DNA from: Flavobacterium sangjuense
GTDB taxonomy: Bacteria; Bacteroidota; Bacteroidia; Flavobacteriales; Flavobacteriaceae
Assembly: GCF_004797125.1 (NCBI RefSeq)
Contig: NZ_CP038810.1
Coordinates: forward strand, 1,798,001-1,862,000
Reading direction: 5' to 3'
DNA: 64,000 bases
The position numbers and the translations under genes were made by a program. Of this stretch, positions 20,077 to 57,350 are shown in pieces (the first letter of the stretch is position 1; the number at the start of each line of letters is the position of its first letter). The notes beneath the pieces are model-generated. The model was not told the origin of the DNA. It saw only the letters and a list, made by a program, of their open reading frames with translations, and did no database searches.

Positions 20077-20109
20077 AGACCTGACAGGTTTTCAAAACCT
20101 GTCAGGTCT
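20077..20109. repeat. 33-nt perfect palindrome
   Basis: Arms AGACCTGACAGGTTTT and AAAACCTGTCAGGTCT around a single C. It sits 38 nt upstream of the DAACS start in a divergent region, so it is not a terminator for either neighbour. The terminator stem at 5063-5092 is a shorter relative. Confidence 0.75.
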
Positions 20110-20126
20110 GCAATACAAATCCTAAC

Positions 20127-20219
20127 TAGCCCTGATAGAAGCGGTCTCGTCTTTTGGGACGAGATAGAGCGGATAGCAGGAATATGGTTTCCTAAAATGC
20201 CCTAACCATTCGCTTCTAA
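20127..20219 (+). ncRNA. Candidate structured RNA element, copy 1
   Basis: A conserved 5' block AGCCCTGATAGAAGCGG, a perfect hairpin TCTCGTC (20144-20150) / GACGAGA (20157-20163), a 3' block GAGCGGATAGCAGG, then a second stem ATGGTT / AACCAT and a tail CGCTTCTAA. CCTG and CAGG in the blocks can pair around the central hairpin. A second copy exists at 57265-57350 with matching blocks but a different, still paired hairpin. From memory it may correspond to a known Bacteroidota RNA motif such as Flavo-1; this is unverified. Confidence 0.6.
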
Positions 20220-20246: not shown

Positions 20247-20307
20247 CTTTGCGACTTCGCGTCTTTGCGTGAAAAATAATTGCTCGCAAAGACGCGAAGG
20301 CGCAAAG
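20247..20307. repeat. Large inverted repeat (23-bp arms)
   Basis: Left arm 20247-20269 and right arm 20285-20307 are complementary at 22 of 23 positions (core CTTCGCGTCTTTGCG / CGCAAAGACGCGAAG) with a 15-nt AT-rich loop. A degenerate relative lies at 62825-62887. It is a typical Bacteroidota intergenic repeat; no gene content. Confidence 0.75.
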
Positions 20308-20364: not shown

Positions 20365-20393
20365 TTGTAATTAAGAAATTATGCTTACTTTTG
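20365..20393 (+). promoter_or_regulatory. rpsA promoter
   Basis: TTG (20365-20367), an 18-nt spacer and TACTTTTG (20386-20393) match the Bacteroidota consensus fully. It implies a leader of roughly 110 nt. Confidence 0.7.
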
Positions 20394-27992: not shown

Positions 27993-28026
27993 AAAAAAAA
28001 GCCTCACATTAGTGAGGCTTTTTTTT
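27993..28026. terminator. Bidirectional terminator between the small exported protein gene and pheT
   Basis: Stem AAGCCTCAC / GTGAGGCTT with loop ATTA, flanked by an A-run (27993-28000) and a T-run to 28026. The T-run overlaps the pheT stop codon (28025-28027, minus strand). Confidence 0.9.
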
Positions 28027-30448
28027 ACTGTCTTAAACTCGCACCAACTTCAGTCTCTAAATTCTTCTGCAGTTTGTTCATGATTTTATCAATCTGTTCG
28101 TCTGTCAAGGTTTTGGTGTTGTCCTGCAAGGTGAAACTCACAGCATAAGATTTCTTGCCTTCCGGAAGATTCTTGCCTTGGTAAACATCAAATAAATTCA
28201 CTTCTTTTAATAACGATTTCTCAGTCTGACGCGCAATAGCATAAATTGCATCAAAAGCTACTGAATCATCTACCAAAAGCGCTAAATCTCTTCTTACTTC
28301 AGGATATTTTGGAATATCAATAAACTTGATTTTATTGTTAATCAGTTTCAGAATCAGATTCCAATTGAAATCAGCAAAGAAAACTTCCTGTTTGATGTCG
28401 AAATGCTTTAGAATTGATTTTTTAACGGTTCCAAATTCAACCAAAGTATCGTTACCGTTAGCAATCGCTATTCCTTCTGCAAACACATCAGAAGCCACAG
28501 GTTTGTTTTCTATTTTGCAAATTCCCAAACGATTTAGAACCGAATCCACAAATCCTTTAAACAAAAAGAAATCAGATGGTTTTTCAGTCGTTGTCCAACT
28601 TTCCGCAACTCTGTTTCCGGATACAAAAAGTGTTAAGTGTTTTGGTTCGTTATAACCCGAAGGTAATTTGTGATATGTTTTTCCGAATTCGAATAATTTC
28701 AAATCACCATTTCTTCTGTTGATATTATAAGATACCGCTTCTAATCCAGAGAACAACAACGATTGGCGCATTGCCGACAAATCATTGCTCAACGGGTTTA
28801 ACATCATCACGTTGTATTCTTCTTTCAACATTTCGGATAATTTTACATAATCCGGCGATGTTAATGAGTTGGCCATCATTTCGTGAAATCCAAGCGAATT
28901 CAACTGAGTCGCCACAATGTTTTGCACTTTATAATCTTCTGTTCTGGCCGAATTGGCAACAGTAGCATTTAATTTTTTGGTGAAATTGATGTTGTTATAA
29001 CCATAAACCCGAAGGATTTCTTCGATAACATCTACTTCGCGTTGCACATCTACACGATAAGAAGGAATGATTAAACCCAAACCGGCATCGGTAACGCTGT
29101 TTACTTTAATATCTAACGAAGCCAAAATTTTCTTGATGGTTTCTTTTGGTAATTCCTGCCCAATCAATTTGGCAGTTTTATCAAAATTTAAGAAAACAGG
29201 AAAGTCTTCAATCTTTTTTGGATAAATATCAACGATGTCAGAAGTGATTTCGCCACCGGCAACTTCTTTGATTAAAAGCGCGGCACGTTTCAATGCAAAT
29301 TCTGTAATGTTTGGATCAATTCCTCTCTCGAAACGGAAAGATGCATCCGTATTCAAAGCATGTCTTTTTGCCGATTTTCTAACAGAAACTGGATTGAAAT
29401 AAGCACTTTCAAGGAAGATTGAATTAGTTGATTCGGTTACTCCGGATCCTTTTCCGCCAAAAACACCAGCGATGCAAAGCGGTCCTTTTTCGTCGCAAAT
29501 CATCAAATCTTCTTCATGTAAAGTTCTTTCCACATCGTCTAAAGTGACAAATTTTGTTCCGGCTGCTACAGTTTTTACGATAATTTTTCCACTGATTTTG
29601 GAAGCATCAAAAGCGTGTAATGGCTGCCCTAAATCGTGAAGAATATAATTAGTGATGTCAACAATATTATTTTTTGGAGTTAAACCAATAGCTTTTAAAC
29701 GGTTTTGCAACCAAGCCGGTGACGATTTTACAGTAACTCCAGAAATGGTTACACCGCAATATCTTGGTGCTAACTTACTGTCTTTAACATCAACATCAAT
29801 TTTGAGTGTTCGTTTGTCAATTCGGAATGTACTTACCGTTGGAGTTATTAACTCGATGCTGCTGTTTTTTTGTAATAAACTGGCACGTAAATCTCTTGCA
29901 ACACCATAATGCGACATAGCATCGGCGCGATTTGGCGTTAAACCAATTTCGAAAACTTCGTCGTTTTCAACATTAAAAACTTTAGCTGCAGGAGTTCCCA
30001 GTTTTAGATTTGCATCCAAAATCATAATTCCGTCATGACTTGTTCCAAGCCCAAGTTCGTCTTCAGCGCAAATCATTCCGTGACTTTCCTGTCCGCGGAT
30101 TTTTCCTTTTTTGATTTCAAACTCAACACCATCCTTGTCAAACAATTTGGTTCCGATAGTAGCTACAGGAACTTTTTGTCCTTTGGCAACATTACTCGCA
30201 CCGCAAACAATTTGCACTGGAGTTCCATCTCCTAAATCAACAGTCGTAATGCTTAATCTATCGGCATCAGGATGTTTTTCACAAGTCAGAACATGACCTA
30301 CGACAACACCTTCCAAACCACCACGAACCGATTGGTATTTTTCAACAACTTCTACTTCCAAACCTAAATCGGTCAGTAAGGTTGCTGTTTCTTCTGATTT
30401 TAAATCTATTTTAATGAATTGTTTTAACCAATTGTATGAAATCTTCAT
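28025..30448 (-). CDS. pheT: Phenylalanine-tRNA ligase beta subunit
   Basis: PheT pairs with PheS to charge tRNA-Phe. The 807-residue protein has the full bacterial layout: N-terminal MKISYNWLKQFI, a tRNA-binding OB domain at about 40-150 (HVLTCEKHPDADRLSITTVD and VCGASNVAKGQKV), the B3/B4 editing domain, a B5 domain, the catalytic-like core and the C-terminal anticodon-binding FDX-ACB domain (YPEVRRDLALLVDD to the end). pheS is not next to it here, which is common in Bacteroidota. It lies downstream of the efflux/bestrophin genes with a 101-nt gap and is probably a separate unit. Confidence 0.98.
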   Translation of the reverse strand: MKISYNWLKQFIKIDLKSEETATLLTDLGLEVEVVEKYQSVRGGLEGVVVGHVLTCEKHPDADRLSITTVDLGDGTPVQIVCGASNVAKGQKVPVATIGTKLFDKDGVEFEIKKGKIRGQESHGMICAEDELGLGTSHDGIMILDANLKLGTPAAKVFNVENDEVFEIGLTPNRADAMSHYGVARDLRASLLQKNSSIELITPTVSTFRIDKRTLKIDVDVKDSKLAPRYCGVTISGVTVKSSPAWLQNRLKAIGLTPKNNIVDITNYILHDLGQPLHAFDASKISGKIIVKTVAAGTKFVTLDDVERTLHEEDLMICDEKGPLCIAGVFGGKGSGVTESTNSIFLESAYFNPVSVRKSAKRHALNTDASFRFERGIDPNITEFALKRAALLIKEVAGGEITSDIVDIYPKKIEDFPVFLNFDKTAKLIGQELPKETIKKILASLDIKVNSVTDAGLGLIIPSYRVDVQREVDVIEEILRVYGYNNINFTKKLNATVANSARTEDYKVQNIVATQLNSLGFHEMMANSLTSPDYVKLSEMLKEEYNVMMLNPLSNDLSAMRQSLLFSGLEAVSYNINRRNGDLKLFEFGKTYHKLPSGYNEPKHLTLFVSGNRVAESWTTTEKPSDFFLFKGFVDSVLNRLGICKIENKPVASDVFAEGIAIANGNDTLVEFGTVKKSILKHFDIKQEVFFADFNWNLILKLINNKIKFIDIPKYPEVRRDLALLVDDSVAFDAIYAIARQTEKSLLKEVNLFDVYQGKNLPEGKKSYAVSFTLQDNTKTLTDEQIDKIMNKLQKNLETEVGASLRQ

Positions 30449-37011: not shown

Positions 37012-39120
37012 TTAACTGATGTAATTCCAGATATTTTTCTTTTTGGAAAGTTCAATAAATACAGTTCTAAGCGTCTGATGTTCGGGCAAAGTCATTGATG
37101 GATCTTTTTTCAAAAGTTTCAAAGCTTCATTTCGGGCAACCATCAAAATATCTCTGTCTTTTACCAAATCAGCAATTTGAAGTTGCAAAACGCCGCTTTG
37201 CTGTTTGCCCATAATATCGCCAGGACCACGAAGTTTCAAATCAACTTCTGCAATTTCGAAACCGTCATTCGTTTGACACATGGTTTCCAATCGGACTTTA
37301 CTATCACTCGACAATTTAAAGGATGTCATCAATATGCAATAGCTCTGTTCGGCACCACGACCAACACGGCCGCGCAATTGGTGTAATTGTGACAAGCCAA
37401 AACGTTCGGCACTTTCAATAATCATTACACTCGCATTTGGGATATTTACACCAACTTCAATCACGGTTGTCGCTACCATTATATTGGTTTTTCCTTCGGC
37501 AAATCGTTTCATTTCGGCATCTTTATCGGCGGGTTTCATTTTACCGTGAACGATAGAAATGCTGTATTGAGGTAACGGAAAATCTCTCGAGATACTCTCG
37601 TAACCATCCATCAAATCCTTGTAATCCATGGTTTCACTTTCCTGAATCAGCGGGTAAACAATATAGATTTGTCTGCCTTTGGCAATTTCATCTTTGATAA
37701 ATTTCCAAACTTTTAATCGGTTGCTGTCGTAACGATGAACCGTTTGAATTGGTTTTCTTCCCGGCGGCAATTCGTCAATCACAGAAATATCTAAATCGCC
37801 ATACAAACTCATCGCCAAAGTTCGTGGAATAGGCGTAGCAGTCATCACCAAAATATGTGGCGGAATATCATTTTTTTGCCAAAGTTTGGAACGTTGCTCT
37901 ACACCAAATCGATGTTGCTCGTCAATGATGGCTAAACCCAAATTATGAAACTGCACTTTGTCTTCGAGCAAAGCGTGTGTGCCAATAAGAATGTGCAGAC
38001 TTCCATTTTCTAACTCTTCATGGATGATTTTTCTATCGGCAGTTTTTGTTGAGCCAGTCAGTATTTTTATATTGATATTTAATCCTTTAGCCAATTCGGT
38101 TAAACCATTAAAATGCTGATTTGCCAGAATTTCTGTTGGTGCCATTAGGCAACTTTGAAAGCCATTGTCTAATGCAATAAGCATCGCCATCAACGCCACA
38201 ATTGTTTTTCCCGAACCAACATCGCCTTGCAAAAGTCGATTCATTTGGGCATTGGTGCCCATATCGTTTCGGATTTCCTTGAGTACTTTTTTTTGCGCAT
38301 TCGTCAGTTCGAAAGGCAAATGATTTTGGAAGAAATTATTAAAATTTTCACCGACAACAGTAAACGGATGCCCCTTGATTTTATGCTTCCGAACCAGATT
38401 TTTGGTAATCAGTTGCAATTGAATAAAAAATAACTCTTCAAACTTCAAGCGGAATTGCGCTTTGGACAATAGTTCCTGGCTTTTTGGAAAATGGATGTTA
38501 AACAGCGCCGCATTTTTCGGAATCAATTTTAATTCATCCAAAAGATAAGCAGGTAAAGTTTCAATAAACTTGGCTTGTGTTTCCACAAATAATTGCTGCA
38601 TCATTTTATTGACAACCCGATTGGAAATACCACGATTAGTAAGGGTTTCCGTTGATGGATACACTGGCTGCATAGCCGAACGCAGGCTTTGTTCGTGTTC
38701 GGCAAGCAATTCCATTTCGGGATGCGCCATATTGAAAGTGTTTCCAAACGAAGCTACTTTTCCAAAAATAACATACGGAACATTGAGTTTCAAACTGTCG
38801 CGAATCCATTTATGGCCTTGAAACCAGGTGAGTTCAATTTCACCGGTTTCATCCACGAAAGTGGCAACCAATCGCTTTTTGGCTTTACCAAATTCAACTG
38901 TTTTTATGTGAATGATTTTGCCAATGATTTGAACTTCGCTATCGTTTTTTTGGAGTTCATTAATCTTATAATAACGTGTTCTGTCAATGTAGCGGTTTGG
39001 ATAAAAATTGACCAAATCCTCATAACGATGAATGCCCAATTCCTTACGCAGCAACTCACCACGTTGAGGTCCAACGCCTTTAAGGTATTCGATAGGAGTT
39101 TGCAGAAGCGAGTTTGACAT
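37012..39120 (-). CDS. recG: ATP-dependent DNA helicase RecG
   Basis: RecG remodels stalled replication forks and Holliday junctions. The 702-residue protein has the N-terminal wedge domain with an OB fold (about 55-150, IIGKIIHIKTVEFGKAKKRLVATF), then the two helicase domains with Walker A GDVGSGKT, motif II DEQHRFG, motif III TATPIPRTLA, and the C-terminal LRGRVGRG and GPGDIMGKQQSG motifs that are specific to RecG. Complete and of normal length. It is divergent from the M1 aminopeptidase gene. Confidence 0.98.
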   Translation of the reverse strand: MSNSLLQTPIEYLKGVGPQRGELLRKELGIHRYEDLVNFYPNRYIDRTRYYKINELQKNDSEVQIIGKIIHIKTVEFGKAKKRLVATFVDETGEIELTWFQGHKWIRDSLKLNVPYVIFGKVASFGNTFNMAHPEMELLAEHEQSLRSAMQPVYPSTETLTNRGISNRVVNKMMQQLFVETQAKFIETLPAYLLDELKLIPKNAALFNIHFPKSQELLSKAQFRLKFEELFFIQLQLITKNLVRKHKIKGHPFTVVGENFNNFFQNHLPFELTNAQKKVLKEIRNDMGTNAQMNRLLQGDVGSGKTIVALMAMLIALDNGFQSCLMAPTEILANQHFNGLTELAKGLNINIKILTGSTKTADRKIIHEELENGSLHILIGTHALLEDKVQFHNLGLAIIDEQHRFGVEQRSKLWQKNDIPPHILVMTATPIPRTLAMSLYGDLDISVIDELPPGRKPIQTVHRYDSNRLKVWKFIKDEIAKGRQIYIVYPLIQESETMDYKDLMDGYESISRDFPLPQYSISIVHGKMKPADKDAEMKRFAEGKTNIMVATTVIEVGVNIPNASVMIIESAERFGLSQLHQLRGRVGRGAEQSYCILMTSFKLSSDSKVRLETMCQTNDGFEIAEVDLKLRGPGDIMGKQQSGVLQLQIADLVKDRDILMVARNEALKLLKKDPSMTLPEHQTLRTVFIELSKKKNIWNYIS

Positions 39121-57171: not shown

Positions 57172-57264
57172 AGTTGTTCGTTTTGAAATACAAAAGTATT
57201 AAATCTATTTTTGATGCAACAAAAGTAAGGCTGTTAATCTGAAATTATACTACTTTTGTCAAAA

Positions 57265-57350
57265 CTGATTAGGAGCGAAAGGTTCGGTCTGCAGCATAAA
57301 CCATTTTCCTGCTTTCCGCGTTACAAGGTAACTGCTTCAATCAGGGCTGG
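57265..57350 (-). ncRNA. Candidate structured RNA element, copy 2
   Basis: Read on the minus strand: 5' block AGCCCTGATTGAAGCAG, a hairpin GTTAC-CTT-GTAAC, a 3' block GCGGAAAGCAGGAAAATGG, then a GGTT / AACC stem and the tail TTCGCTCCTAA. It aligns with copy 1 at 20127-20219 across all blocks; the apical hairpin and loop sequences differ but stay paired. It ends 93 nt before panB and lies in the divergent region between panB and the sigma-54 regulator. Confidence 0.6.

Follow-up and report, generated by a model that had tools for sequence, protein, structure and literature searches.

The window, a 64,000-nt stretch of the Flavobacterium sangjuense genome (contig NZ_CP038810.1, positions 1,798,001 to 1,862,000), contains two divergent intergenic gaps that carry related elements, referred to here as copies A and B. 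Copy A lies between a dicarboxylate-symporter-like gene and rpsA, and copy B between panB and a response-regulator-like gene, with the gene names read from the open reading frames (ORFs). An Rfam scan of the window at the normal threshold returned a single match, to Flavo-1 (RF01705) at copy A. In Rfam, this family has the type sRNA and a 76-nt model that covers the stem P1 and short flanks. The first-pass annotation had aligned the two gaps, quoted their shared blocks, and named Flavo-1 as a candidate. All quoted blocks are in place, the ORFs confirm that both gaps are divergent, and the cmscan matches to RF01705 bear out the guess, copy B being recovered at a lax threshold only. The features of the two loci are as follows.

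20127..20219, + strand: Flavo-1 copy A, whole element, beginning at the T of TAG and ending with TTCGCTTCTAA (Rfam RF01705, sequence reading, conservation profiles)
20124-20187, + strand: Rfam RF01705 match of copy A (44.7 bits, cut-off 42, E = 2.4e-6)
20128..20142, + strand: P1 5' arm of copy A, AGCCC-N1(20133)-GAT-N2(20137)-GAA-GC (pair counts)
20143..20168, + strand: apparently exchangeable tip module of copy A, TCTCGTC...GACGAGA type (tip comparison)
20169..20180, + strand: P1 3' arm of copy A, GC-GGA-N2'(20174)-AGC-N1'(20178)-GG (pair counts)
20180..20219, + strand: P2 3' hairpin of copy A, long form ATGGTT/AACCAT with the terminal TCGCTTCTAA (sequence reading, class comparison)
20386..20393, + strand: TACTTTTG, likely rpsA promoter -7 box, located downstream of copy A (sequence reading, motif TAnnTTTG)
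57352-57301, - strand: Rfam RF01705 match of copy B (32.5 bits, below the cut-off of 42, E = 0.0052, lax threshold only)
57269..57349, - strand: Flavo-1 copy B, whole element, with a GTTAC/GTAAC tip and a long P2 (Rfam RF01705 and the copy in the relative G163)
57220..57227, - strand: TACTTTTG, likely panB promoter -7 box, located downstream of copy B (sequence reading, motif TAnnTTTG)

Copy A starts with the 5' block TAGCCCTGATAGAAGC (20127-20142), followed by TCTCGTC/GACGAGA, GCGGATAGCAGGAA, ATGGTT...AACCAT, and TTCGCTTCTAA, which ends at 20219; its 3' hairpin and tail were read from the sequence, and its ends were set from the conservation profiles of 281 and 270 copies. Copy B is counted as a Flavo-1 relative because it has the same blocks and tail and because the same site in G163, a relative that is 86% identical to F. 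sangjuense around rpsA, holds an intact copy with one compensated pair. Both promoter assignments, like the promoter counts given below, use TAnnTTTG, which we take to be the flavobacterial -7 motif. As the likely rpsA and panB promoters are located downstream of copies A and B, the copies would fall outside the respective leaders. Our best reading of these sequences is that both are old members of the family, positioned upstream of the likely promoters and probably not included in the rpsA and panB transcripts.

Copy A is flanked by two other palindromes. One, AGACCTGACAGGTTTT...AAAACCTGTCAGGTCT (20077-20109), directly adjoins its 5' end and is found in an altered form in G163; the other, CTTTGCGACTTCGCGTCTTTGCG ... 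CGCAAAGACGCGAAGGCGCAAAG (20247-20307), is on its 3' side and is unalignable in the G163 gap. Sub-threshold Rfam matches to Ysr141 and Leu_leader (window positions 38033-38288 and 27994-28069, respectively) score far below their cut-offs and are taken as chance.

Family size and distribution

The first-pass annotation described a two-copy element placed towards core genes. In fact, the F. sangjuense genome (3,130,338 bases in one contig) yields 51 RF01705 matches at E <= 1, including 35 above the Rfam cut-off, and these are dispersed in all orientations. The weakest of them need care, since 5 of 14 control genomes also gave matches at this lax limit, none of them over the cut-off. The spacing of the copies is as expected at random, with 4 gaps under 6 kb against 4.7 expected and no sign of clustering.

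Among 40 genomes of relatives (89 candidates scored per genome), 26 had matches at E <= 0.001, ranging from 0 to 88 per genome within the genus; a later search found 72 matches in G163. Two genomes that are 97.2% alike around rpsA, G136 and G069, have 116 and 36 copies, respectively (150 candidates scored), so that the combined searches give a genus-wide range of 0 to 116 copies per genome. A pattern scan of named genomes found Flavo-1, among the matches listed, in Flavobacterium, Chryseobacterium, Kaistella, Epilithonimonas, Halpernia, Polaribacter, Algibacter, Tenacibaculum, Tamlana, and Flavivirga, as well as in a metagenome bin named Sphingobacterium.

A search of a phage collection with one Flavo-1 query gave no match. 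One query against a plasmid collection gave 3 partial matches in Paraclostridium (approximately 60 of 96 bases, 79-81% identity), which are thought to be chance hits of an AT-rich query. Three Flavo-1 patterns run against viral contigs gave 0, 0, and 1 match; in this single match (L394, 474-500), a Flavo-1 5' arm is found beside phage-like ORFs.

Several observations concern individual copies. L027 (577308) and G163 (C1:677839) contain a variant of Flavo-1 that differs in its foot and 3' end, GCGTTAGNGAT ... GGCCCGAAGGGAAACGCCC, and L023 (1288333) contains a similar one; these may form a separate subfamily. In L045, L047, and L035 (genome positions 2242803, 2533852, and 2806482), ORFs of 1284, 1258, and 1262 amino acids each adjoin a Flavo-1 copy with similar flanks, and in two of these three copies, the internal loop holds an additional insert. 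Another repeat, of the GTCATTTCGAGG...CCTCGAAATGAC type, is scattered in the G136 group and adjoins Flavo-1 copies (L227, 16193-16308 and 1470-1592). Finally, L230 (G136 C3, positions ~900-1300) contains two identical Flavo-1 copies 299 bp apart within a direct repeat, with an N between them, which is probably an assembly artifact near a contig end.

A constant stem with a variable tip

Both ends of the element are sharp. At the 5' end, which is TAGCC, 98% of 281 copies have T as base -1, and positions before -3 are little conserved; the 3' end is GCTYC, followed in the conservation profile by about six A-rich positions. Between them, P1 forms a stem with internal loops, consisting of C-N1-G, then T-N2, the pairs y and z, and the tip. 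Two forms of P2 occur, a mini form (GGAAATAGCTCC) and a longer hairpin, the latter being present in both window copies.

Pairing in P1 is almost invariant. Across 288 distinct copies, the four variable outer pairs make up 1152 cells, of which 1117 (97.0%) are Watson-Crick, compared to 52.2% (maximum 55.1%) when the 3' letters are shuffled. The N1 pair is C-G in 154 copies, T-A in 103, G-C in 14, and A-T in 11, and the N2 pair is A-T in 103, G-C in 90, and T-A in 89, all these being counts of non-independent events in copies that share ancestry. In an alignment made up of window copy A and 44 short copies drawn from the 153 that were eligible (45 rows in total), 96.6% of the cells are paired, versus 89.4% in shuffled data, with a clear peak at slide 0, and RNAalifold recovers the same P1 unprompted. 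Covariance in an alignment of homologs, whose absence the first-pass annotation had named as a refutation, is likewise present, with two-sided changes in 66 cells against 15.5 in the shuffles. Conservation of the unpaired bases is not to be read from either data set: the 288 copies were collected with a pattern that demands the unpaired AGCC, GAT, GnA, GnA, and AGC (9 of the 51 Rfam matches in F. sangjuense do not fit it), and 35 rows of the alignment were taken from a search in which the 5' arm was part of the fixed pattern. A possible outermost TAG/CTA helix is paired in 84.2% of the cells of the alignment with no two-sided change and is thus unproven.

Single-sequence folding does not recover the consensus shape, which therefore rests on comparison. 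Copy A folds better than its shuffles (z = -3.10 as DNA and -2.37 as RNA) but adopts a different shape; for copy B, there is no gain over its shuffles (z = -0.99 and -0.09, respectively), and the consensus shape is not taken either. An alternative pairing between the 5' arm and the 3' tail, thermodynamically preferred in copy A, was dropped, as there is no covariation between these arms.

The tip is 12 to 96 nt long on a constant lower stem and comes in several types: short ones (GCTACCnTGTAGC and its kin), the TCTCGTC...GACGAGA type seen in copy A as well as in the copy at genome position 500435 and two copies of G163, and some palindrome between ATCC and GAT. An exact 15-mer, CTGAGCTTGTCGAAG, occurs 6 times in the genome, every time inside a Flavo-1 tip. 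The genomes of F. sangjuense and G163 often have different tips at one site with aligned flanks; thus, the copy at genome position 1053788 has an TCATTGCGAGG-type tip in the former and a TCTCGTTT...AACGAGA tip in the latter. This fits a central hairpin that is exchanged as one modular unit, both among copies and across species. Such exchange is a better account of TCTCGTC/GACGAGA versus GTTAC/GTAAC, which the first-pass annotation took as covariation, than stepwise compensation; the outer stem, for its part, is upheld by strong covariation. The outer stem also provides one true compensation between the window copies, in the pair after GAT, which is A-T in copy A and T-A in copy B.

Mismatches in the fold depend on the strand. 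On the sense strand, G-T mismatches outnumber A-C by 77 to 16 overall (57:8 in the tips and 20:8 in the outer pairs) and by 24 to 3 in the copies that are antisense to both neighbors, which indicates that the fold of one strand matters. This asymmetry fits a folded single-stranded DNA of the sense strand, and RNA fits it as well. The share of G-U is 1.7% in the outer pairs of Flavo-1 and 8.5% in 14 tRNAs from the same loci, a small calibration.

Pairing could in principle be maintained with no selection at all. In quasi-palindrome correction, one arm is copied from the other during replication. The 84 outer-stem pairs of 21 ortholog pairs (5 further pairs of the 26 misfit the pattern and were left out) include 29 in which both sides have changed, 11 with a change on a single side, and 44 with no change, and this excess of two-sided changes, along with the rarity of G-U intermediates, agrees with arm copying. 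However, it would not account for the G-T over A-C asymmetry, which needs a strand-specific constraint, or for the unpaired AGCC, GAT, GnA, GnA, and AGC being kept in 42 of the 51 Rfam matches, albeit the Rfam model itself favors these bases. We regard arm copying without selection as an extremely improbable explanation of the kept pairing.

Gene context and transcription

A total of 244 copies were placed relative to the neighboring genes with a crude ORF caller, 44 of the 288 being unplaceable. Of these, 85 are antisense to both neighbors, 56 are sense to both, 49 are in divergent gaps, 44 are in convergent gaps, and 10 are within ORFs. The orientation is not wholly neutral, since tandem gaps under 600 nt hold 82 antisense copies versus 53 sense ones (p = 0.016). 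A downstream gene in the same direction is present for 105 of the 244 copies (56 sense and 49 divergent). A role as a 5' cis-regulatory leader is not supported by this count, nor by the window copies, both of which precede a likely promoter. An independent sRNA gene with its own 5' promoter is not supported either: within 60 nt of the 5' end, TAnnTTTG occurs on the sense strand in 13 of 234 copies and on the opposite strand in 20, and little is conserved before position -3.

The fold is maintained equally well in all these contexts. The outer pairs are Watson-Crick in 98.2% of cases in sense, 95.4% in divergent, 95.5% in convergent, and 96.8% in antisense copies, and the tip stems average 10.5 to 11.2 pairs across the four contexts. 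The conclusion of the first-pass annotation that the kept pairing reveals selection on RNA structure does not follow, as pairing is the same where no neighboring gene would transcribe the sense strand. The promoter data, with the motif no more common at the 5' ends and the likely rpsA and panB promoters downstream of the copies, provide no support for it either.

Published data on the transcription of Flavo-1 are mixed. In the available text of the F. psychrophilum transcriptome study (PMC9723704), Flavo-1 matches are described as being indistinctly sense or antisense to the newly defined transcribed regions, with many outside them, and several 5' transcribed regions coincide with such matches. 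The discoverers of the family tabled it in 2010 as a probable RNA (PMC2864571, as far as the accessible part goes), and the portion seen of a 2022 review places Flavo-1 with the most abundant families of small RNAs, giving no function (PMC9029176). A proposal of Flavo-1 as a DNA element was not met in the accessible parts of these three papers, with most subscription journals lying outside the search, and our search for literature on palindromic repeats in Flavobacterium gave no title on this element.

Flavo-1 could still be a true RNA, either an independent sRNA or a part of a transcript, whose fold would serve a function in trans or in cis. Its strong covariation and sense-strand preference for G-T would be those of an RNA, in line with its Rfam type, its original listing, and the transcribed regions mentioned above. 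Against this stand the mixed gene orientation, the promoter motif counts (13 sense versus 20 opposite), and the pairing retained in copies whose sense strand no neighboring gene transcribes. We consider the RNA label doubtful and the RNA reading weak; it is unlikely, and keeps a fifth of the weight because the G-T/A-C pattern fits RNA, too.

Gain, loss, and relation to known elements

Of the 51 F. sangjuense sites, 33 are common to G163 (30 with both flanks assigned to one locus and 3 with one flank), and the Flavo-1 fold is mostly kept there. At 9 of the 42 assessable sites (9 of the 51 could not be judged), G163 has no copy; 5 of these are simple alignments with no remnant, and 4 are rearranged stretches. 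At the rpsA site, among ten relatives covering the gap, 5 have an intact or nearly intact copy, 1 has an eroded one, 3 have no element, and 1 is unclear. In the G136 region, one copy has no counterpart in any of the 6 relatives compared, and a second site carries the element in 3 of 7 genomes. Among the sites compared, no clean empty site at base resolution was obtained; the mobility of Flavo-1 is seen as gain or loss of sites and not as transposition.

For a purely selfish element, the hardest observation to explain is that the fold is retained at the common sites. Stranded copies should decay, yet these folds are kept, which calls for either selection at the site or renewal in place; the exchange of tips favors renewal, without proving it. 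Under site selection, each copy would be a DNA hairpin useful to the host, bound by a chromosome or replication protein and rarely gained. The 33 shared sites and the 29 two-sided changes in the ortholog pairs (against 11 one-sided and 44 unchanged) agree with such a role. An essential site, however, would hardly vary from 0 to 116 copies per genome in one genus or be absent with no remnant at 5 of 42 assessable sites and from 4 more in rearranged stretches; in addition, the copies are spaced as at random and no protein partner is known. We find a host-selected site rather unlikely.

No mobilizing gene for Flavo-1 was found. F. sangjuense encodes a single Y1 transposase with no Flavo-1 beside it. 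The gene is followed by other palindromes, of the AATCCCGTTAGGGATT type (L051, 1489-2340; genome region C1:2342127), perhaps a REP-like family of their own. The Y1 transposase domain (PF01797) is absent from genomes with 88, 44, 20, and 12 Flavo-1 copies. A Y1 (RAYT-like) mobilizer was rejected, as its presence does not track copy number; the Y1 gene may have been lost after Flavo-1 had spread. Direct repeats of at least 5 nt are found at the junctions of 5 of 270 copies, compared to 6.2 in shuffles, that is, there is no target duplication at this length. Enzymes of the IS200/REP-type HUH group insert without duplicating the target DNA. No replichore bias was detected (19 to 24 of the 51 copies under the placements tried, with a poorly placed origin), which counts against a lagging-strand mechanism, as such a mechanism predicts a bias.

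On balance, we think that Flavo-1 is probably a REP-like nonautonomous dispersed DNA repeat, which a putative enzyme would spread and maintain in the form of a folded DNA strand. One strand, when single-stranded, would fold into a fixed two-hairpin shape with the foot TAGCC, P1 with its internal loops and a free choice of tip, P2, and the end GCTYC with its A-rich stretch. The folded form would be single-stranded DNA, and the putative enzyme would recognize this fold and insert copies with no duplication of the target DNA; the tip would be free because the enzyme would read only the foot and the lower stem. As a tentative extension, in which we have little confidence, Flavo-1 might represent a new class of single-stranded DNA mobile elements with a constant recognition stem, tip cassettes, and a non-Y1 enzyme, the tip serving as a dock for other palindromes and helping to explain the rapid turnover of intergenic regions in Flavobacteriales. 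Should Flavo-1 prove to be a DNA element, each such genome would contain dozens of wrong sRNA annotations, and covariation alone would be an unsafe proof of RNA.

Compared to its Rfam description, the family is the same, and copy B has the same blocks and tail in spite of its score under the cut-off. In our data, however, the element includes P2 and the GCTYCTAA end, its tip can be exchanged, and the evidence does not support an RNA. MITEs are short, nonautonomous, and dispersed; Flavo-1 has these properties and is gained and lost as well, but its constraint is strand specific rather than that of a terminal-repeat pair, and a MITE of a DDE transposase is not supported by the count of target-site duplications of at least 5 nt (5 of 270 copies versus 6.2 in shuffles). 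The attC sites of integrons are folded single strands with a constant lower stem and a variable terminal structure, and Flavo-1 shares the constant stem and a variable tip of similar size (12 to 96 nt). An attC-type recombination site, where genes are gained and lost, would also agree with three loci: at genome position 956048, about 600 bases with an ORF beside the element are absent from G163, and at 1024711 and 2439748, G163 has other DNA instead of the element. Three loci make no statistic, however, and the copies are single and randomly spread with no cassette arrays, as judged by the spacing in the F. sangjuense genome alone; such a site is very improbable.

In our preferred reading as a folded DNA repeat, Flavo-1 resembles REPs (palindromic units with RAYT transposases). 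Like the REPs described in the accessible portions of PMC2817692 and PMC3733652, it is a high-copy extragenic hairpin repeat with TAG at the foot that keeps complementary changes and varies widely in copy number; a Pseudomonas mendocina REP (PMC2817692) begins with GTAGCCCGGAT, close to the TAGCCCNGAT of Flavo-1, which is a resemblance only. A GTAG REP in the strict sense was rejected because the foot tag is GTAG in just 1 of 288 copies (CTAG in 137, TTAG in 98, ATAG in 46, CCAG in 4, and TGAG in 2), and a GTAG REP with an associated RAYT (Y1) because the sole Y1 gene has no Flavo-1 beside it and many-copy genomes have no Y1. Flavo-1 also differs from REPs in its length of ~80-150 nt, against 20-40 in REPs, and in having two hairpins, an HTAG tag (almost never GTAG), no clustering, no flanking RAYT, and a TAG that may pair with the terminal CTA. 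Overall, Flavo-1 is a known and correctly guessed family whose behavior is best read as that of a REP-like repeat of DNA hairpins with some distinctive features.
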